Origin: Deltaproteobacteria bacterium
Lineage (GTDB): Bacteria > Desulfobacterota > GWC2-55-46 > UBA9637 > GWC2-42-11
Assembly (NCBI GenBank): GCA_016223005.1
Contig: JACRPW010000006.1
Span: 1-38,492 of the forward strand
Direction of reading: 5' to 3'
DNA length: 38,492 bases
The notes below the pieces were generated by a model. The model did no database searches, was not told the DNA's origin, and was given only the letters and a program-made list of their open reading frames with translations. This document shows, piece by piece, positions 1 through 25,726 of this stretch (position 1 is the first letter of the stretch; each line of letters starts with the position of its first letter). The position numbers were made by a program, and so were the translations under genes.

Positions 1-614
1 TCCTTGTGGCTGCCTATCCTATGGGAATGATGGTTTATACATGGTTTGTTTATAGAAAGAATCAGAAATGGGCAAAGATACTTGGACTTATCTCTATTGT
101 GCTTGCTGTCTGCACCCACTGGTATACAGGTGTGGTAATGCAGTTAAACCCCGGCAGAGACTTAAACCATACTGCTATGGCAGCCCTTATATTCCTGACA
201 GGCGCATTTGTATCAGGTGTTGGTTTTATGATTTTTATGCTCTACATGAGAAATCTTATAGTCCCTGAAGAAAAAAAATACGATATGGATTTAACAATAG
301 AGTTAGGAAGGCTTATGGGTTATGGAATTGCATTTGACTTCTTCCTTATATTCTCAGAATTCCTTCAGATGAGATACGGGACAGCAGAGGAGATATTAGT
401 TCTGGATAGAGTCCTCCTTGGAGTATTTATATGGCCATTTTTCTGGGGGCAGATTCTTATAGGCTTGGCAATACCCCTTATAATCGTCTTCTCACCATTA
501 GGCAAGAAGGCATGGGTAGTTGCCCTTATTGCTGGCTTCCTTACATTTGAAGGAACATGGGGCATGCGTGTGTGGTGGGTGTTGGGCGGGCAGTTTTTAC
601 AGAGTTTTTATTAA
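1..614 (+). CDS. NrfD/PsrC-like membrane subunit (5' partial)
   Basis: The gene enters from the left edge; the reading frame is already open at base 3, so the start is outside the window. The visible 200 or so residues are very hydrophobic and form about five membrane segments separated by short polar loops. Hydrophobic length, a Trp/His-containing loop (THWYTG, NPGRDLNHTAMAAL) and position directly before a molybdoenzyme fit the NrfD/polysulfide-reductase-C family, the quinone-reactive membrane anchor of CISM oxidoreductases. In such complexes it passes electrons between quinone and a periplasmic iron-sulfur subunit. No iron-sulfur subunit is visible here; if present it should lie upstream of the window. 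The gap of 99 bases to the molybdoenzyme holds a double hairpin repeat, so the two genes may not be equally expressed. Family call is good; substrate is unknown. Confidence 0.75.
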   Translation, partial: LVAAYPMGMMVYTWFVYRKNQKWAKILGLISIVLAVCTHWYTGVVMQLNPGRDLNHTAMAALIFLTGAFVSGVGFMIFMLYMRNLIVPEEKKYDMDLTIELGRLMGYGIAFDFFLIFSEFLQMRYGTAEEILVLDRVLLGVFIWPFFWGQILIGLAIPLIIVFSPLGKKAWVVALIAGFLTFEGTWGMRVWWVLGGQFLQSFY

Positions 615-626
615 CACAATGAAAAC

Positions 627-685
627 CTCAAACCTAAAGGTTTGAGTTACCACATATTATATTGTAACTCAAGGCTTTAGCCTTG
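627..685. repeat. Double-hairpin repeat with CTAAAG and CTTTAG cores
   Basis: Two adjacent perfect hairpins are seen: CTCAAACCT/AGGTTTGAG (627-646) and CAAGGCT/AGCCTTG (670-685). They are linked by a longer inverted pair, TGAGTTAC at 643-650 and GTAACTCA at 664-671. A related double hairpin with the same CTTTAG and CTAAAG cores lies at 303-347 of the 28 kb block (28303-28347), so this is a dispersed family rather than a simple terminator. There is no T-tract after it. It sits between the NrfD-like and molybdoenzyme genes. Confidence 0.7.
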
Positions 686-713
686 ATTGCACTATTCATG
701 GGAGGAGATATAG

Positions 714-3320
714 ATGTTAAGGATAAGCAGGAGAAACTTCATAAAGCTCGGTATGTCCACCACAGCAGCCCTTGCCTCCGGTGTTGGTTACAGTAAACTC
801 CTGATGGCAAAGGAGCTTGATTTAGGGGGGCGGAGTTATAATCACATTACTGCGGCAAAGGAGAGAATATCTGTCGGAACCACATGCTCTTTGTGCAGAT
901 ACTATACCTGCGGCGCTCTGGCATTTGTAGAGGAAGGCGCGGTTGTAGCCATGGGCGGCAACCCCATCCATCCATCATCAAGGGCAAGGCTCTGTCCTCT
1001 TGGTAATACCTCCCACCTCAAGATTCATGACCCGGACAGAATCCTCTTTCCATTAAAGAGGATGGGACCAAGGGGTTCTGGCAAGTGGAAGAGGATTACA
1101 TGGGATGATGCTTTAAATGAGGTGGCAGGCAAGGTCAGGGCTGCATTGGATAAAGGCAAACCAGAGGAGATATGCCTTAATTACGGCAGGGATGAGACAG
1201 ACGGGGCTATAAAGAGGTTTATACATACATTAGGTTCAAATTCCATCTTTAACACATCCTGTCACAACAAGAAGGTTGGTATGGAGTCCACATGGGGTGC
1301 TGAGATAGAAACACCTGATTTTGCAAAGACAAGGTATATAATAAACTTTGGGGCAAACATATTTGAGACAGCGTATCCACATGCCAGAAGGACTGCAGCC
1401 AGTATCAGGGAAAATGGAGCAAAGATTGTAACCTTTGACCCAAGATTGTCCAATACCGCTGGCAGGTCAGATGAGTGGTACCCCATCTTTCCCGGAACAG
1501 ATGGACTTGTTGCCCTTGCCATGTCAAATGTCATAATGCAGGAAGGGCTTGCTGATAAGGGCTTTATAGATACATGGACCAATTATCCATACGATGGGCT
1601 TAAAACATATCTTCAACAGTTCACACCTGAGATGGCAGAGGAAAAGAGCGGTGTTAGAGCAGATGTAATCAAAAGGGTTGCCATTGAGTTTGCAAAGGCA
1701 ATGCCCGGCACTGTATTCACCTTCAGGGGTGTAAGCGCCCATCTCTTTGGTGTGTATCAGGAAAGGGCATGCATGCTCCTTCCAATAATCACGGGTAATG
1801 TAGAGATAAAAGGCGGCTACTGTCTGCCAAGGACAATTAAACTCTCACAGCCCGCACCATCTCTATCTGCGGCAGTGTCCACCAATCCTGCATCTGCTGA
1901 ATACCCCTTGCCTGCGGCAGCATCAAGCCACCTTCTGCCTTTCTTTATAAAGGACGGCAGACAGAAGGCAGGTGTCTTGTTTAATTATATGAGTAACCCT
2001 GTGTATAGTTCCCCTGCTGCCAGTTACTGGAGGGATGTCCTAAAGGATGAAAAACTTGTCCCCTATACAGTAGATTTTAGTCCATTTATGAGCGAGACTG
2101 CGGAACTGGCAGATTTGATTCTTCCTGATGCAGTGTCGTTAGAAAGACATGGAATAGTAAGTGTTCCATCAACCCTATTTCCTACGCTTGATGTCAGGCA
2201 GCCTGCGGTAAAACCCATTGGTGAATCTATGGATACCCGGTTTGTTTTACAGAGGATTATCCAATCAATAGACCCTGATGACAAGAAGGGCTTTAAGAAA
2301 CAATGGGATTTCAAGGATGGAGAGGACTGGGTTAAGAAAAATCTTGAAGGCATTAACCTTGCTGACAAATACAAAGACCTGAAAGAGAAGGGGGTTTTGC
2401 CTGTATATGAAAGGCTTGACCCTAAAATAAGGGATATTGTTGATAAGGGTGGTAAACCTATAGAGGCAGAGTATGGAATTTATAAAAAGCCGTTGACTCA
2501 GGGGGAGATGGAAAAGGCAAAGGTAGATTTAAAAAAAGGTGCTGTTATAAAAGATGGCAAGACTATAGGCATTGTGGTCAATGGAGCGAAACTCAAGGGT
2601 TTTGAAACCCCGTCCAGAAAGATAGAGATATATAACAAGGGGTATGAGAAATATGGGTTTAACCCGCTTCCCACATGGGAGGATGTCCCTGCGCACAAGG
2701 GTTTAAAAGACGGTGAGATGGTTCTTGTTACATTCAAGTGGTGGTGTCATAACTCATCTGAGACAGCAAACACAAAATTCCTGTCCGAGACCATCCACTC
2801 TAATCCTGCATGGCTCAACAGAGAAACAGCAAAGAAGATGGGTATAAAGGACGGCAGTCTTATAAGGCTCACCACACCCGCAGGCTATATGATTACAAAG
2901 GTAAAAACCACAGAAGGCATACATCCAAAGGTAGTTGCAGTATCTACATCTGCCGGACACTCGGCACTAGGAAGGGTGGCAAGTATTAATCCTAAGGCCC
3001 ATAATGCAATGTGGTCTTCTGGCAAGGGGGATGAGGATATTAAGGAAAACCTCTGGTGGAAAGATAAAGGGGTTCATCCAAATGATATTATCCCTGTGTC
3101 TTTTGACCCGTTAGGCGGTTCACAGGCATGGTCTGACACAGTAGTTGCTGTCAGTCCTGCTAAAAAGGGTGATAAATATGGAGAGATAAAGGTTGATAAT
3201 GCTGTCCACCATGCCTTTTATAAGGAAACCATAAGGTGGACATACAAAGGCGACATTTATAAAAAGATGATTGAAGACAGGGAGAAGGCAAAGGCAGCAC
3301 CAAAGGAAGAGGAGGGATAG
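714..3320 (+). CDS. Tat-exported molybdopterin oxidoreductase, PsrA/PhsA/TtrA type
   Basis: This is a catalytic subunit of the DMSO reductase superfamily (868 residues). The N-terminus carries a twin-arginine signal (SRRNFIK, residues 5-11), so the folded enzyme is exported to the periplasm. Cysteines 58, 61, 66 and 94 form the [4Fe-4S] binding set; the spacing C-x2-C-x4-C is one residue longer than the usual C-x2-C-x3-C. A Cys-His pair at 183-184 (TSCHNK) is at the place expected for the molybdenum ligand and would make it a cysteine-ligated enzyme. The segment SDEWYPIFPGTDGL (about 262-275) and the C-terminal NPAWLNRETAKKMGIKDG are typical of the polysulfide/thiosulfate/tetrathionate/arsenate branch. 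A strong Shine-Dalgarno, GGAGGAG at 701-707, fixes the start. The next gene follows after 6 bases. The true electron acceptor or donor cannot be read from sequence alone. Confidence 0.9.
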   Translation: MLRISRRNFIKLGMSTTAALASGVGYSKLLMAKELDLGGRSYNHITAAKERISVGTTCSLCRYYTCGALAFVEEGAVVAMGGNPIHPSSRARLCPLGNTSHLKIHDPDRILFPLKRMGPRGSGKWKRITWDDALNEVAGKVRAALDKGKPEEICLNYGRDETDGAIKRFIHTLGSNSIFNTSCHNKKVGMESTWGAEIETPDFAKTRYIINFGANIFETAYPHARRTAASIRENGAKIVTFDPRLSNTAGRSDEWYPIFPGTDGLVALAMSNVIMQEGLADKGFIDTWTNYPYDGLKTYLQQFTPEMAEEKSGVRADVIKRVAIEFAKAMPGTVFTFRGVSAHLFGVYQERACMLLPIITGNVEIKGGYCLPRTIKLSQPAPSLSAAVSTNPASAEYPLPAAASSHLLPFFIKDGRQKAGVLFNYMSNPVYSSPAASYWRDVLKDEKLVPYTVDFSPFMSETAELADLILPDAVSLERHGIVSVPSTLFPTLDVRQPAVKPIGESMDTRFVLQRIIQSIDPDDKKGFKKQWDFKDGEDWVKKNLEGINLADKYKDLKEKGVLPVYERLDPKIRDIVDKGGKPIEAEYGIYKKPLTQGEMEKAKVDLKKGAVIKDGKTIGIVVNGAKLKGFETPSRKIEIYNKGYEKYGFNPLPTWEDVPAHKGLKDGEMVLVTFKWWCHNSSETANTKFLSETIHSNPAWLNRETAKKMGIKDGSLIRLTTPAGYMITKVKTTEGIHPKVVAVSTSAGHSALGRVASINPKAHNAMWSSGKGDEDIKENLWWKDKGVHPNDIIPVSFDPLGGSQAWSDTVVAVSPAKKGDKYGEIKVDNAVHHAFYKETIRWTYKGDIYKKMIEDREKAKAAPKEEEG

Positions 3321-3326
3321 AAAATC

Positions 3327-4022
3327 ATGGAAAGACAAGGCAGTGATAAGATTGATAAGATTATTGAGTTCATTAGCAAAAATAAAGTGTCCATTATCGG
3401 CGGCGGCATTGGAGCCGTTTTAATCCTCCTCATAGCGGTCATTTCCTTCCTTAATCATGGTTCTGTAAACAACCCCAATTTCTGTGCCTTATGCCATGAG
3501 ATAAAATATTCCTATGATGATTACAGACCATACCCCATTACAAAGGCAAACTCAGGGGTCAGGGTTGGATGTGCGGAGTGCCATCCAATGGTCTTTGCTG
3601 AGTATGAAAAGAGCAAGCACTTTAATGGCAGAAATGGTTTAAGACCGGGGTGCACAAGTTGTCATGAGCCGCACACAGTTGGTAAGTTCGCAAATTTTAT
3701 GTTTGTTACAGGTCCAATCTTTACATCTAAGCCCGGTTCAGGACCAGGCGGTGCATTCTGGAATATCGCAGCCCCTATGAATGACAAGGAAAGGTGGGAG
3801 GCTATCAGGCCAGGACTTGCCAAACGGGTAAGGGAAGGGTTTATGAAAAATGACAGCGCCCCTTGCAGAAACTGTCATAATACCGAGATATTGGTTCCAA
3901 AGAGGATTCGCGGCCAGAATGCGCATGAAAAGTTTAAATCCGGAGAAAAGACCTGTATAGAGTGCCACTATAATCTGGTTCATGCAGAAGTGGCATGGAA
4001 TGTTGATAAGAAGAAAAAATAA
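3327..4022 (+). CDS. Membrane-anchored pentaheme cytochrome c (NapC/NirT/NrfH-like)
   Basis: The protein has 231 residues, with one N-terminal membrane helix (about 21-43) and a periplasmic domain bearing five CxxCH heme sites: CALCH 53-57, CAECH 82-86, CTSCH 109-113, CRNCH 180-184 and CIECH 210-214. NapC/NrfH quinol dehydrogenases have an N-terminal anchor and usually four hemes, so this is a five-heme relative with a long heme-free gap (114-179). A likely role is electron transfer between the quinone pool or the NrfD-like subunit and the periplasmic partners. It starts 6 bases after the molybdoenzyme stop with a GGAGGG ribosome site, so the two are translationally linked. Confidence 0.88.
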   Translation: MERQGSDKIDKIIEFISKNKVSIIGGGIGAVLILLIAVISFLNHGSVNNPNFCALCHEIKYSYDDYRPYPITKANSGVRVGCAECHPMVFAEYEKSKHFNGRNGLRPGCTSCHEPHTVGKFANFMFVTGPIFTSKPGSGPGGAFWNIAAPMNDKERWEAIRPGLAKRVREGFMKNDSAPCRNCHNTEILVPKRIRGQNAHEKFKSGEKTCIECHYNLVHAEVAWNVDKKKK

Positions 4023-4035
4023 GACCTGTTTAGAT

Positions 4036-4061
4036 GGGGACAGATTTTATAATCCGTCCCC
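4036..4061. repeat. GGGGACAGATTT palindrome, copy 1
   Basis: An imperfect palindrome with arms GGGGACAGATT and AATCCGTCCCC lies just after the pentaheme gene. It is one of four copies in the window (others at 12553, 28201 and 28995). Here it provides an upstream ATG and in-frame codons ahead of the receiver-like gene, which makes that earlier start suspect. Confidence 0.75.
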
Positions 4062-4081
4062 GGTTTTTGGCGGGGCAAGGC

Positions 4082-4459
4082 ATGGTTGTCATACTCACTG
4101 ATGGGTCAGATAAATTAGAAGAAATTAGTAATTTCCTTTCAACCCATGGCTTAGAATTCCGCATAGTCCCTATTAAGGAGTTTAAAGAAGGGCTTAAAGG
4201 CAATGTTGAGTTTGTCATCTATGACACCTATAACTTCACTTATAAGGATGTGGAGAATATCAAAATAACAAAGGAGTTTAATATCCCGGTGCTTCTTATA
4301 ACTGCATATCCCGAGCAATGGGCTATAGAAACGATATCCAAACTGTGGAGATATGATTTTATAAAGGACTACCTTGTTAAGCCTGTAGATATTAAGAAAC
4401 TGGCGGCATATTTTCCAACTTGTAAGACAGGAGGTGATGCAGAGACCATAAGAATCTAG
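4082..4459 (+). CDS. Small receiver-like (CheY-fold) protein
   Basis: About 125 residues with the outline of a response-regulator receiver domain and nothing else. A beta strand ends in Asp 48 (VIYDTYNF), the candidate phosphorylation site. A strand ends in Thr 74 (LLITAYPE), and a Lys-Pro pair (DYLVKPVD, Lys 100) marks the last strand. The usual acidic pair after strand 1 is weak (ILTDGSD), so it may be a degenerate receiver. I chose ATG 4082 because the alternative ATG at 4034 begins next to a dispersed palindrome and adds residues that do not look native. It lies inside the respiratory cluster between two cytochrome genes, so it could tune expression or assembly of that system; that is inference. 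Confidence 0.65.
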   Translation: MVVILTDGSDKLEEISNFLSTHGLEFRIVPIKEFKEGLKGNVEFVIYDTYNFTYKDVENIKITKEFNIPVLLITAYPEQWAIETISKLWRYDFIKDYLVKPVDIKKLAAYFPTCKTGGDAETIRI

Positions 4460-4502
4460 TGAAACTATTAACAAAAACACTATTTAAAAGGAGGTATTTC
4501 AA

Positions 4503-5837
4503 ATGAAGAGATTTTTAAAGAGTCTTGTTTTTTGTTTCCCGATTACTATTGTTGCCCTTGTATTTCTTACTGCCGGCAGTCTTCAGGCAGGAGAGCCTGA
4601 CTGGGGTAAAATCCCTGAGAGGAAAATAACAGCCTTCAAACCCGGGCAGGCATCATGGGAGTTTGTAGTAGGTGCGGGGCATGGCACAGGCGCAAAGGCA
4701 GTCCAAAAGGGTGAGGAGAGGTGTCTTGACTGCCATAAAGGCGAAGAGGCAGAACTGGTAAAAAATATCCTTGGACCAAAGAAACTTGACCCGGAGCCAG
4801 TTAAAGGGCATACTACAAAGGAAGTGAGTTTAAAGGCTGCCTATGATAATGAAAATATCTATGTAAGACTTGAATGGGCATCCGCAGGCACAGGTATATT
4901 CCCCCAGGACATGTTTAGATACAATGGGAAGGAGTGGGAACTGATAGTGGGTGAGAGGCCCGGGACCCCTGTAGAGGACCTCACAGCAGAGGACAGGGTA
5001 AATATTATGTGGGATGACGGCAGTGTGCCCGGCTTTAAGAAATATGGCTGCTGGCTTACCTGTCATAATGACCTTGTGGACATGCCTAACGAGATAGGTG
5101 ATGAGATAAAGAACAAGAACCCATACTTTGTGAAGAAGAAAAAGAATATAAAGGAGATAACAAAATATCTCCTTCTCACTACAACAAAATCTGATGCGAC
5201 AGGTGGATGGATGAATATAAATGGCTCTGATGAGGAGTTAGACAAGTTAAAGAAAGAGGGCAAGTTCATTGACCTCTGGCACTGGAAGGCAGGGAGGAGT
5301 GGACCGCAGGGTTATGCACAGGACCAGCATATCTTTGTTGACCGTGCAAGTGATAAGGGTAAGGGACCATATACAGCGAACTGGGATAAGGAGAAGAAAC
5401 AGCCAAAGTTTATGTTTAATAAAGCAAAACTCGGCTATAATGGTTTTGAGTGGGGAGATGTAATCAAGATACAGACCCGTAAAAAGAATGTCCCTGCATA
5501 TCTCCTGACCACTGATACATCTGTCCCATTTGACCCCAATGCAGGATGGAAGAAAGGGGATACCCTCCCAGGGTTTACCAATGATATTCCATTAGAGGGT
5601 GGAGCGGACATAAAGGCAAAGGGTGTATGGAAGGACGGGAAGTGGACAGTTGTTATGACAAGGAAGTTAAATACAGGCGATGCACTTGGTGATAAGGTAT
5701 TAAAGGATGGCGGGGTCTATACAATAGGCACCTCTGTCCATGATGATTTTGTTGGTGGACGTTGGCATTATGTTTCATTCCCATTTGATATAGGATTGGG
5801 CGCAAAGGCAGACTATACAGCAACAAAGGTGCAATAA
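4503..5837 (+). CDS. Periplasmic cytochrome c with ethylbenzene-dehydrogenase-like heme domain
   Basis: The protein has 444 residues. A signal peptide spans about 1-29 (cleavage near LQAG). A c-type heme site CLDCH is at 74-78. The rest resembles the EB_dh (ethylbenzene dehydrogenase gamma-like) heme-binding beta-sandwich found in subunits and partners of DMSO-reductase-family enzymes: VSLKAAYDNENIYVRLEW and VNIMWDDGS near 107-174, and a C-terminal strand DDFVGGRWHYVSFP. A second possible heme site, CWLTCH at 183-188, has C-x3-CH spacing rather than C-x2-CH. A strong ribosome site, AGGAGGT at 4489-4495, precedes the ATG. Its place after the molybdoenzyme and pentaheme cytochrome and before a porin suggests a periplasmic electron carrier of the same chain. 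Direction of electron flow is unknown. Confidence 0.8.
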   Translation: MKRFLKSLVFCFPITIVALVFLTAGSLQAGEPDWGKIPERKITAFKPGQASWEFVVGAGHGTGAKAVQKGEERCLDCHKGEEAELVKNILGPKKLDPEPVKGHTTKEVSLKAAYDNENIYVRLEWASAGTGIFPQDMFRYNGKEWELIVGERPGTPVEDLTAEDRVNIMWDDGSVPGFKKYGCWLTCHNDLVDMPNEIGDEIKNKNPYFVKKKKNIKEITKYLLLTTTKSDATGGWMNINGSDEELDKLKKEGKFIDLWHWKAGRSGPQGYAQDQHIFVDRASDKGKGPYTANWDKEKKQPKFMFNKAKLGYNGFEWGDVIKIQTRKKNVPAYLLTTDTSVPFDPNAGWKKGDTLPGFTNDIPLEGGADIKAKGVWKDGKWTVVMTRKLNTGDALGDKVLKDGGVYTIGTSVHDDFVGGRWHYVSFPFDIGLGAKADYTATKVQ

Positions 5838-5855
5838 GAAGATTGCTGGTGTAGT

Positions 5856-5894
5856 TATTCCGGGGGAGATACCTCCATGGTCTCCCTCGGAATA
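5856..5894. other. Long stem-loop between cytochrome and porin genes
   Basis: TATTCCGGGGGAGA (5856-5869) pairs with TCTCCCTCGGAATA (5881-5894) with one G-T wobble, giving a 14-bp stem and an 11-base loop. No T-tract follows, so it is a poor intrinsic terminator. A role as an mRNA processing or stability element between the cytochrome and the porin is more likely. Confidence 0.6.
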
Positions 5895-7228
5895 TGCTAG
5901 TCGTGGGAGGAAAATCAAATGAATAAAGTTTTATTATTTCTTTTTGCAGTAGTTATATGGGCAGCATGGGTATCGTATTCTTATGCAGCACAGGCAAAGG
6001 TCAGCGGTTACTATGAGATAAAGGGATTTGCCTATGACAATGTTGACCTTAACAATGCAGTAGATGATGGTGTGTCAAACACAGGGCATGAATTCAGGCT
6101 GAATATTGATGTTGAAGAGGGTCCGCCAGAATTCCAGTGCATGGAACCGTGAGATGTTCCTTGTCTTTCCTTTAGGCAGCGCCAAACTCAAGGTAGGCAG
6201 GATGTGGGAAGGAGACCCATTTAAAGGGCTCATGTTTATAGATGTAAAGGATGCCCTAACTATTACCTATCCTGTAAATGCGATAAATCTGGTTGCCTCT
6301 ATTGTTAATATGGATGATGATGCCAATAAAAATGACAACTTCTTTTCACTGGTAGGAACTTATGCGCCTGAAGGCTCTGTATTTAGCGGTTCACTCGGCT
6401 TGTATCACCGTGTTACCAATGACAGTTCAACATCAGGAACTTATATAGAGGATAGACCCCAGTATCTTGCAGTCGCACTTGGTATTGCACAGGAGCCGTG
6501 GACATTAGGCATTACAGGTGCATTTATGTTTGGTGATAAGGATATAAATACAGGCGGCGTCAGCACATCCTATGATTACAAGGGATATGCCTTTGATATA
6601 AGGGCAGGGTATGATTTTGCAAAGATATCTAATATTCCTTTAACTGCAGAGGTTATCTTTGGGCTTGGCAGTGGTGATGACAATCCCAATGACAGGGATT
6701 TTGAATCCTTCCAAGGCATTTCACCCGGATATTTTCATGGTGCAATATTTAAGGATGTAGGCGACCCGAGGATTGGCGGCGCCCCTGAGGTATTAAACCA
6801 TGGAGGCATAGAGGCAAATGGGCTTGGCAATCAGAGGATGTTGGCTTTAAACCTCAAATATCAGGCAACAGATGATTTAAGTCTTGGGCTTTTTGGCGGT
6901 ATGTTTTGGCTGACAGAGGATAAGAATGTTAATCTGAATGCCACATCAGGAGGCGCTACCTATCTGAACAACCATATAGGGAATGAGGTTGCCCTTACTG
7001 CTGACTATTCTCTGGCAAAAAACTTGAACCTTCATCTGCAGGCAGCATGGTTTATGGGCGATAACGGAATGTATGATACTACTGCAACAACCACACCCGG
7101 TGATACGGCATCAGAGTATCTTGTAATGCTCGCGCTTGGGAGTTCTAAAAAAACCATAATTAGACTTCGTTTGCTTTGGTCAAATACTGCGTCAAATCTG
7201 TCTGTCCAAATACTCACATACTTAATAG

Positions 7229-7316
7229 GTCAGGCATCTTGCCTGACAAAGTCAGCCGAGACGGCTGACCTATTAGGAAGCCTGACCTATTGTCCCCTGA
7301 TAGAAACTTTCAGGGG
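7229..7316. repeat. Cluster of three hairpins after the porin remnant
   Basis: Three hairpins follow each other: GTCAGGCA/TGCCTGAC (7229-7247), GTCAGCCG/CGGCTGAC (7251-7269), and CCCCTGA/TCAGGGG (7294-7316). AATAGGTCAG before the first pair and CTGACCTATT after the second form an outer inverted pair, so the first two are one compound element. This stretch, 7150-7498, contains no credible gene; besides these repeats and the element at 7345 I see nothing else recognisable in it. Confidence 0.7.
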
Positions 7317-7344
7317 CAGGCTTTGGCTCAAATCTTGCGTTTGC

Positions 7345-7379
7345 ACCCGAAAAATAAAAACCAAATGCATTTTTCGGGT
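7345..7379. repeat. ACCCGAAAAAT hairpin element, copy 1
   Basis: Perfect 11-bp arms ACCCGAAAAAT (7345-7355) and ATTTTTCGGGT (7369-7379) enclose a 13-base loop, AAAAACCAAATGC. An inverted copy with nearly the same loop lies at 24082-24118, so both stem and loop are conserved between copies. Confidence 0.75.
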
Positions 7380-7498
7380 TAACCAATTAAAACAAATTAA
7401 AACACAAATTTGAAAGGGATTTAAAAAATAAGGAACTCTTGCAGCCCATCCCGATTTTATGATTGCAATTTGGCTGGTTCTGATTTATATGACTAACT

Positions 7499-20551: not shown

Positions 20552-21286
20552 ATGGAATCTATGGCAGAAATTACAGAATCTCAAAAATTTGATGCATTTG
20601 GCAAAGAGTGGTGGAGTCCGAAAGGCAGGTTTGTATCGCTTCACAGGATTAACCCTTTAAGATTTTCATATTTTTCAGGCAAGGTTGAAGGAGGTCTCAA
20701 GGATAAAAAGGTTCTTGATATAGGCTGCGGGGGCGGCATACTTTCAGAGGAATTTGCAAAGACAGGGGCTTTTGTTACAGGGATTGATTTATCCCCTGTT
20801 GCAATTGATGCTGCAAAAGGACATGCAAAGGAACAAGGACTTGATATTGATTATAAGGTGTCTTCTGTTTCTCAACTCCGAACTCCGAACTCCGAACTCC
20901 GAACTTACTTTGACATCGTTATCTGCGCCGAGGTTCTGGAGCATGTGGATGACCTTTCAAAATTTCTGAAAGACGCATGCAGTCTTTTAAAAATAGGCGG
21001 CTATTTTTTTTTCTCAACTCTGAATAAGACCCTCTCATCAAGGTTTTTTGCCATATTCATGGCAGAGAACATCTTAAACATGGTTCCAAAAGGCACGCAT
21101 GATTTCAAAAGATTTATAAGACCATCTTTTCTTGTAAAACTTTTGCAGGAAAATGGTGTAAGTGTTGAAGAGATTAAAGGAATGAGATTTGACCCCTTGC
21201 TCTTTGATTTCAGGATTTCAGACAATACAAGTATAAACTACTTGGGGTATGGAGTAAAAAATGGGAGGACAAATGGGCATCCTTGA
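20552..21286 (+). CDS. ubiG: UbiG-like SAM-dependent O-methyltransferase
   Basis: The protein has 244 residues. The SAM-binding motif [16 protein letters not shown] (54-69) and [10 protein letters not shown] (123-132) are intact, and the C-terminal half ([35 protein letters not shown]) is characteristic of UbiG, which performs both O-methylations of ubiquinone synthesis. In an anaerobe-like genome the natural substrate could be another phenol. Residues 108-118 ([11 protein letters not shown]) are encoded by a heptamer tandem array inserted between strand 3 and the [10 protein letters not shown] strand, a loop position. ATG 20561 is a possible alternative start. It overlaps fabI by 14 bases. 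Confidence 0.88.
20874..20905. repeat. Heptamer array (AACTCCG) inside ubiG
   Basis: Four perfect copies of AACTCCG (20874-20901) plus a partial fifth are read in frame. Because 7 is not divisible by 3 the array encodes the same cyclic heptapeptide (LRTPNSE) in all three forward frames, and neither strand contains a stop. Confidence 0.92.
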
Positions 21287-24081: not shown

Positions 24082-24118
24082 ACCCGAAAAATGTATTTGG
24101 TTTTTATTTTTCTGGTTA
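24082..24118. repeat. ACCCGAAAAAT hairpin element, copy 2 (inverted)
   Basis: This is the inverse of the element at 7345-7379, with arms ACCCGAAAAAT and ATTTTTCTGGT and a nearly identical loop. It lies between the convergent ABC-F and nadB genes and reaches the nadB stop codon, so it may also serve as a two-way terminator. Confidence 0.7.
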
Positions 24119-25726
24119 ATTATTTCTTAAGACCGTATCAATCTTCCAGTTTTCATCATCCCTTTCAGGATAGTCAATATTATAATGGAGTCCGCGGCTC
24201 TCCTTTCTTTTTATTGCTGACATTATGATTAAATCTGAAACTGTTGCAATGTTTCTGAGTTCAATCAGGTTGCTTGTTACCACAAAGTTCCGGTAGTACT
24301 CATCTATCTCTTTTTGCAGAAGGTCAATCCTCCGCTTTGCCCTTTCAAGCCTTTTATTGGAACGGACTATGCCAACATAGTTCCACATGAGCCGTCTGAT
24401 TTCATCCCAGTTCTGTGTGATAACAACAGCCTCATCACTGTCAACAGCGCCGCCTGCCTGCCACTCAGGAATATCGGGGATTATGATTGTTTTGTCTTTT
24501 GCAATATCCTTTGCCATGACATACGCCCTGTTGGCAAAGACCATTGCCTCAAGGAGGGAGTTTGACGCAAGTCTGTTTGCCCCGTGCAGACCTGTGCATG
24601 CGGTTTCACCTATGGCAAAAAGCCTCTTGATGTTTGTCTCTCCAAAACTATCTGTTGCTACGCCGCCGCACACATAATGAGCAGCAGGGACAACAGGGAG
24701 CGATTCCTTTGTCATGTCATAACCAAACGACAGGCATTTTTCGTATATATTGGGGAATCTGTCTTTTATAAATTCAGGCTTCTTATGGGTTATATCCAAG
24801 AATACGCAGTCATCACCGCTTTTTTTAAGTTCAAAGTCTATTGCCCTTGCAACAATATCTCTCTGGGCAAGTTCTTTCAAAGGATGATACTTTTCCATAA
24901 ACCTTGTTCCATCTTTAAGCCGCAAAATCCCGCCCTCTCCCCGCACTGCCTCTGATATAAGAAAGTTCTTTGCCTTTGGATGATACAGGCATGTAGGATG
25001 AAACTGGATAAACTCCATATTTGCAACTACTGCCCCTGCCCTGTAACTTACAGCAATGCCGTCTCCTGTTGCCACATCAGGGTTGCTTGTGTATATATAC
25101 ACCTTTCCTGCGCCGCCTGTTGCCAGAATCGTGGTCTTTGCCAGAAATGTATGGATTCCGCCTGTGTTCTTATCAAGGGCATATGCCCCCCAGCACATAT
25201 CCTTTTCGCATTTTTCAACAAATTTTTAATGTGTAATAAGGTCTACAGCAATATGATTTTCGTATATGACAATGTTTTTTTCAGCATCAACTGCCCGGAG
25301 CATTGCCTCTTCAATCTCCCTGCCTGTAAAATCTTCAGCATGGACAATCCTTCTTTTTGAATGCCCGCCTTCTTTGCCTAAATCCAGTTCTGTTTCATCA
25401 TAACCTTTTCTTGTAGTAAATCTTGCCCCAAGGTTAATAAGTTCATATATTCGTTCAGGACCATCATTTACAACAAGTTCAACTATATCAGGATGGCATA
25501 AACCTGCACCTGCCTCTATCGTATCTCTTATATGGTTTTCGAAGGTGTCTTCTTTGCTCAAGACAGAGGCAATGCCTCCCTGTGCATAAAAGGTTGCGGA
25601 TTCAGTCCTCTCCCTTTTTGTGACAACAGAGACACTTCCGTATCTTGCAGCCTTTAATGCAAAGGAAAGCCCGGCAATCCCGCTGCCTATGATAAGAAAG
25701 TCTGTTCTAATCTCCAAAGCGCACAC
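24116..25726 (-). pseudogene. nadB: L-aspartate oxidase interrupted by an in-frame ochre codon
   Basis: The gene for the FAD enzyme that oxidises aspartate to iminoaspartate, first step of NAD synthesis. Read on the minus strand from GTG 25726 it has the FAD motif IIGSGIAGLSFALKAA (12-27), ATFYAQGGIAS, and HAEDFTGREIEEAMLRA. At codon 167 (25226-25228) there is a TAA. The same frame resumes at once ([18 protein letters not shown]) and continues with [31 protein letters not shown] and the C-terminal helical domain to 24116, giving a total length near the usual 540 codons. No frameshift is involved. The options are a real nonsense mutation, a sequencing or assembly error, or split translation restarting at ATG 25198. 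A good promoter lies upstream. The C-terminal part alone lacks the first FAD-binding strand and would probably not fold as an enzyme. Confidence 0.88.

Follow-up and report, generated by a model that had tools for sequence, protein, structure and literature searches.

We analysed a window of 38,492 nucleotides, contig C6 of a 1.82-Mb genome in 102 contigs (label G000) from the Desulfobacterota class GWC2-55-46. The first 7.4 kb of the window holds a respiratory gene cluster around a molybdoenzyme-like large subunit, here termed MoA, and a pentaheme cytochrome, here termed NapC5. All cluster genes lie on the same strand, and the gaps between intact genes are 6–99 bp. The features are as follows.

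3–614, plus strand: NrfD-like membrane subunit, C-terminal two thirds approximately (PF03916, 1.4e-13).
629–690, no strand: two short palindromes in the nrfD–moa gap (pattern search; copies elsewhere in the genome).
714–3320, plus strand: MoA, large subunit of the complex iron–sulfur molybdoenzyme (CISM) type with a twin-arginine (Tat) signal (PF00384, 1.9e-31, plus FS0 and dinucleotide-binding domains).
3327–4022, plus strand: NapC5, pentaheme NapC/NirT-like cytochrome with a single N-terminal anchor (PF03264, 3.4e-34; five CXXCH; alignment).
4034–4459, plus strand: small CheY-like (receiver-like) protein, assignment unproven (homolog in locus L156; no family match).
4503–5837, plus strand: exported EB_dh-domain cytochrome with CXXCH (74–78) and CX3CH (183–188) (PF09459, 4e-52; alignments).
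5919–7132, plus strand: porin-family gene, broken, its 3' end missing in the contig (Alginate_exp, 8.7e-11; paralog comparison).

The first-pass annotation, made from the letters of the window, had read a one-directional set of NrfD-like subunit, PsrA-type molybdoenzyme, pentaheme cytochrome, receiver, EB_dh cytochrome and porin. Pfam matches supported NrfD, MoA, NapC5 and EB_dh, while nrfD proved to be truncated, the receiver unproven and the porin open reading frame (ORF) broken. Other contigs of the same genome referred to below are C25 (locus L096), C81 (L097), C45 (L119) and C94 (L179).

The window opens inside nrfD, and the gene is cut by the contig edge. The annotation had called for an upstream search for the iron–sulfur (FeS) subunit, and a profile search of the genome found it at the edge of C25 (L096 1110–247, minus strand; PF13247, 2.1e-20), directly followed by the start of nrfD (L096 229–1, minus strand). 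The NrfD profile is covered from position 5 to 75 at the C25 edge and is picked up on C6 at 131, running through 307. We infer that C25 and C6 join, with about 100 bp missing as judged against the C81 paralog. Upstream of the FeS gene, C25 encodes a small lipoprotein-like protein as well as a paired sensor kinase and response regulator.

To place MoA, we compared it with family models, solved structures and relatives. The protein carries the Molybdopterin, Fe4S4 and dinucleotide-binding Pfam domains together with a PsrA-like fold, as CISM large subunits do. PsrA was the closest solved structure by sequence and by fold (Foldseek to 2vpw, 6.7e-48), the fold comparison being made with an AlphaFold model of mean pLDDT 88. 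No NCBIfam cut-off was reached; PhsA was the best match (306 against a cut-off of 694), followed by QrcB (177 of 440), ArrA (153 of 1600) and TtrA (103 of 1750), and the YnfE/F selenate models lay far below cut-off. A scan of the genome collection with MoA returned 80 loci, mostly from a betaproteobacterial family at 47–51% identity. Two trees were built, one from 36 MoA proteins and a second from 25 with the FS0, molybdenum (Mo)-loop and R683 columns removed. Both recovered, with 100/100 support, a clade of the window copy, a copy on C81 of the same genome and those of genomes G001, G002, G004 and G030, to which the second tree added G139. The sister group of this clade is catalytic-type MoA of the same class. 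In these trees, from which characterised PhsA, TtrA, ArrA, SrdA and SoeA were absent, MoA fell outside PsrA in an uncharacterised family. No placement inside a characterised clade with the same gene neighbourhood was found, and the combination, which the first-pass annotation had not recognised, matches no described enzyme. A literature search, with most subscription papers outside its coverage, returned no report of the gene set.

The residues around the cofactors of MoA were then compared across the relatives. The column of the PsrA molybdenum-ligand cysteine (Mo-Cys) holds Cys in 95 of 104 aligned rows; the nine exceptions are six clade members in the alignment, the MoA of C45, L162 and L163, and G139 lacks Mo-Cys as well. 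All six clade members other than the window copy are without it. The window copy is counted as an exception because its C183 sits in a Mo loop shortened by three residues and falls outside the aligned column. In G030, G004 and G139 none of the cysteines of the FS0 [4Fe-4S] cluster is left, and four of the seven clade members have three to four remaining. In the window copy these are C58, C61 and C66 (CX2CX4C) and C94, and L96, E683 and S715 stand where K/R, R and D are found in 97, 96 and 96 of 98 relatives, respectively. Residue 96, next after the fourth FS0 Cys, is presumably the counterpart of the basic residue that in NapA and formate dehydrogenase lies between the cluster and the pterin. 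The catalytic subunits of PsrA, PhsA, ArrA and TtrA combine a normal-length loop carrying Mo-Cys with K/R after the fourth FS0 Cys, a pattern from which the window MoA departs. Set beside the large subunit of Qrc, which is free of redox cofactors, the Mo site and FS0 are both gone in three of the seven clade members and Mo-Cys in six, with the window copy intermediate. The label of PsrA-type molybdoenzyme is right for the fold, but the molybdenum site is eroded, and it is doubtful that the molybdenum subunit is, as assumed, the catalytic one. Separately, the third FS0 Cys is Asp (CX2CX3D...C) in 70 of the 98 relatives, in a family that is otherwise intact, widespread, betaproteobacterial and uncharacterised.

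NapC5 has the N-terminal anchor and heme domain of the NapC/NirT family but five CXXCH motifs, not four. A pentaheme NapC gene lies just downstream of MoA at all seven clade loci, with one small ORF between them on C81. Of 63 genomes of the class searched with a NapC5 profile, 5 carry the gene; among 395 sampled genomes of the phylum, G139 was the sole carrier outside the class. Only 1 of the 85 rows with Mo-Cys and a visible downstream region has a gene with at least four CXXCH within 250 bp; the figure is 6 of 8 for the rows counted without Mo-Cys, and in the remaining two the NapC5 of C81 lies about 440 bp off and L163 is near a contig edge. As many rows are related, this association represents few independent events. 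Outside the clade, at L162 (G087:C109, 4304–9454), a MoA without Mo-Cys adjoins FeS, NrfD and 12-heme cytochrome genes, possibly an independent case of the same change.

The clade FeS subunits carry a C-terminal extension of about 40–55 residues that is absent from two catalytic-type partners. The FeS subunit of the window genome scored 117 bits against the QrcC model (cut-off 400) and higher, 204 of 416, against the TtrB model. Within the clade, dN/dS was 0.09–0.14 for MoA, about 0.10 for NapC5, 0.07 for NrfD and 0.05 for NirS, compared with 0.127 for the catalytic-type paralog; the values are rough because synonymous sites are partly saturated (dS 0.7–1.5). The result for MoA indicates purifying selection on a protein kept for something.

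The EB_dh protein scored 178 bits against Pfam EB_dh (cut-off 33), and its homologs in the class keep CXXCH, CX3CH, H413, R420 and H422 in the alignment. CX3CH is an atypical heme motif known, for example, from ImcH (PMC6295460). The AlphaFold model of this protein had a mean pLDDT of 53.5 and was set aside. An EB_dh gene lies downstream of NapC5 in the window and in G030 (two of the seven clade loci), and d1-type genes, encoding one of two c-d1 proteins (the first NirS-like) or a d1 propeller, lie downstream of NapC5 in C81, G002, G030 and G139. EB_dh does form part of the cluster, since it is found again at the equivalent place in a further family of the class (L122/G030) and also stands beside a second respiratory complex of this genome, on C45. 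This second complex (L119 2642–13663) comprises pentaheme NapC, MoA, FeS, NrfD, an SPFH protein, an EB_dh cytochrome and a two-component system. Its EB_dh protein is 41% identical to that of the window, and both carry an insertion of about 80–90 residues. Its MoA comes from another CISM family, with ArrA as the best model (428 of 1600 bits), and is without Mo-Cys.

On C81 (L097 252–17999), a type II DMSO-reductase-family enzyme (853 bits, cut-off 985), an FeS partner and a porin-like gene precede the sister MoA cluster and NirS-like genes; the arrangement probably sets a periplasmic nitrate reductase, or a related enzyme, next to a cd1 system. Two small ORFs between the respiratory genes of this contig (L097 9440–9775 and 14230–14595) encode what we take to be four-helix-bundle proteins of the 23S intervening-sequence type.

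These results make it slightly more likely than not that the cluster encodes a membrane-bound quinone–cytochrome c electron-transfer complex of Qrc/ACIII-like design, one that would move electrons rather than convert a chemical substrate. NrfD would bind quinone near the periplasmic face, and the FeS subunit would carry electrons from the NrfD-bound quinol. MoA would serve as a scaffold derived from a molybdoenzyme and carry out no molybdenum chemistry, perhaps with one remaining FeS cluster as a relay in the window copy. NapC5 would contact this core and pass electrons to periplasmic carriers, probably EB_dh in the window and cytochrome cd1/d1 enzymes at the sister loci. Given the d1 enzymes beside sister loci, electrons more likely run from quinol to cytochrome than the other way. 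The best reading of the family placement is that a Qrc/ACIII-like complex arose separately among PsrA/PhsA-like enzymes.

Several results weigh against this interpretation. The window MoA, in which four cysteines remain at FS0 and one in the Mo loop, may still bind molybdenum, and loss of a Cys ligand alone is no bar to the metal, arsenite oxidase having no protein ligand. The window copy changed 6 of 64 conserved columns, which a leave-one-out control placed within the catalytic-type range; the total count was dropped as proof of lost catalysis, and the argument draws on the identity of the changed sites and on the clade. The C45-type orthologs in G001 and G002 keep Mo-Cys yet adjoin NapC5, so the association of NapC5 with Mo-Cys loss is not strict. 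Rieske and cytochrome b genes are present in the genome, so such a complex would not be the sole quinol–cytochrome route, and a stand-in for a missing bc1 complex was ruled out for the same reason.

The most serious alternative, which we consider unlikely, is that the window MoA remains a Mo/W enzyme of the PsrA/PhsA group, catalytically active with a changed active site; NapC5 and EB_dh would then connect its reduction or oxidation of some small substrate to periplasmic carriers. Consistent with catalysis are the Tat signal (its twin-arginine motif is retained in all seven clade members), C183 and the FS0 cysteines, as well as R159, R338 and R495, kept in the window and lost in several sister copies; the predicted model, with PsrA as best match, likewise indicates a full fold. 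Against it stand the loop shortened by three, the K/R96L and R683E changes at sites fixed in relatives, and the six clade members without Mo-Cys. Moreover, no TorD-type chaperone gene was found near the cluster on C6 or C25, compared with 65 of 97 catalytic-type loci that have one; this absence is weak as proof, since the other 32 catalytic-type loci also lack a nearby gene, several of them on short contigs.

It is improbable, though the parts match, that the complex runs in the Qrc direction, with periplasmic cytochromes, fed via EB_dh by some donor, reducing the quinone pool. Qrc, with the same parts, runs this way in Desulfobacterota (PMC13059093), and NrfD modules are able to run both ways; the d1 cytochromes at four of the seven clade loci, however, draw electrons from cytochrome c, and the cluster encodes no donor enzyme. 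Decay, which would make the genes remnants of an earlier oxyanion reductase, either as pseudogenes or as debris of assembly, is very improbable: frame changes split MoA in C81 and G002 and the porin in the window, but MoA, NapC5, NrfD and NirS are under constraint, five of the seven MoA ORFs are intact, the losses are concentrated on cofactor sites, and the split of nadB in the same window (see below) points to assembly errors.

Extending the preferred reading, a quinone–cytochrome c complex, we tentatively propose, as somewhat less than an even call, that a separately evolved Mo-free CISM class (PsrA/PhsA-like with pentaheme NapC) links the quinone pool to cytochrome cd1 and EB_dh cytochromes in this uncultured Desulfobacterota class, the change having been repeated (the clade, C45 and L162). 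Qrc and ACIII are the known cases of a Mo-free molybdoenzyme-type scaffold in a quinone–cytochrome bridge, and the clade would add another. It would also display intermediate stages: most members have lost Mo-Cys, some the whole of FS0, and the window copy is intermediate. How a catalytic enzyme turns into a cofactor-free relay could then be tested with paralogs of one genome. A caution follows for metagenomes, where CISM large subunits are not all sulfur, arsenic or selenium oxyanion reductases. As for the quinone, UbiG is encoded in the window at 20552–21286 (244 bits, cut-off 103), and on contig C35 (L201 840–2292) a UbiA gene adjoins a chorismate-lyase-like ORF. A ubiquinone pathway outside Pseudomonadota is likely from these genes, which fit the pathway reported for Desulfobacterota class GWC2-55-46 (PMC13386864).

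We also examined the remaining features of the locus. The listed porin ORF (6106–7413) opens at an internal TTG; the start with a signal peptide is at 5919 in another frame. Comparison with paralogs on C93, C76 and C46 revealed missing coding sequence and a frame change at about 6129–6148, and the genome holds at least four porin paralogs. Sequence after about 7132 is unrelated to porins. Positions 1–145 of C94 are 99.3% identical to window positions 6988–7132, after which the contigs diverge, and C94 completes the porin with a terminal GWYF and continues with Rieske, cytochrome b and eight-heme cytochrome genes. Because C94 shares these 145 bp and finishes the porin properly, the window to the right of about 7133 may be a different or wrong join, or a strain variant. 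In relatives, Rieske genes lie downstream of apparent ammonium-transporter genes, so neither gene order after the porin is proved. The proposal that electrons are exchanged with the outer membrane or with an imported substrate was not borne out, and an outer-membrane conduit was rejected: no outer-membrane multiheme partner was found in the cluster, and the porin is broken, has several paralogs and was not seen at the sister loci.

The putative receiver at 4034–4459 had no match in Pfam or NCBIfam. A homolog with 32–33% identity precedes a related FeS–MoA pair in L156, where it sits behind a kinase/regulator pair, which makes a CheY-like identity plausible. The paired palindromes AAGGCTTTAGCCTTG and CAAACCTAAAGGTTTGAG form an interspersed repeat that recurs at L097 10788, L098 6155 and 8076, and L180 10290. 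At 24116–25726 of the window, a gene that we read as nadB-like is split into two ORFs, suggesting frame errors of assembly in the window contig.

Finally, we compared the cluster with known systems. It shares FeS, NrfD-type, multiheme c and CISM large subunits with QrcABCD, the cytochrome c3:menaquinone oxidoreductase of sulfate-reducing Desulfobacterota, in which QrcB has no redox cofactors (PMC13059093). The two differ in that MoA lies below the QrcB cut-off, with PhsA scoring higher, and the FeS subunit below that of QrcC; QrcA has six hemes (PMC8076601), whereas NapC5 has five and belongs to the NapC/NirT family. With ACIII (ActABCDEF), the cluster has in common the quinol–cytochrome c design, with one pentaheme subunit and another that is CISM-like and poor in cofactors; ActA carries five hemes (PMC8076601, Table 1). 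It differs from ACIII in having one nrfD instead of two NrfD-like subunits, no ActD-, ActE- or ActF-like genes, and separate FeS and MoA genes, where ActB is fused and carries FeS clusters; no ACIII chain was among the PDB sequence matches of MoA. In Methanoperedenaceae, complexes of NrfD, FeS and multiheme subunits have been proposed as menaquinone:cytochrome c oxidoreductases (PMC7327174).

PsrABC and PhsABC are the best structural and NCBIfam relatives of MoA and have like FeS and NrfD partners, but MoA is far under the PhsA cut-off, its Mo site is eroded, and pentaheme and EB_dh cytochromes are added. The betaproteobacterial MoA family (Rhodoferax, Aromatoleum, Sulfuricella and an Azoarcus plasmid), at 48–51% identity, has the same FeS–NrfD–MoA order; unlike the window cluster, it keeps Mo-Cys, usually has an adjacent TorD-like chaperone gene and lacks NapC5, and no EB_dh cytochrome of the window type was recognised at its loci. 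EbdC and NxrC, gamma subunits of enzymes in the type II DMSO-reductase family, have the EB_dh domain in common with the window protein. The latter differs in reaching 30 bits with the type II gamma model, whose cut-off is 170, in combining CXXCH with CX3CH at about twice the length, and in having a partner that is not a type II enzyme. The complex is best filed as functionally of the Qrc/ACIII kind and derived from a PsrA/PhsA-like family, rather than being assigned to Qrc, ACIII or Psr itself.

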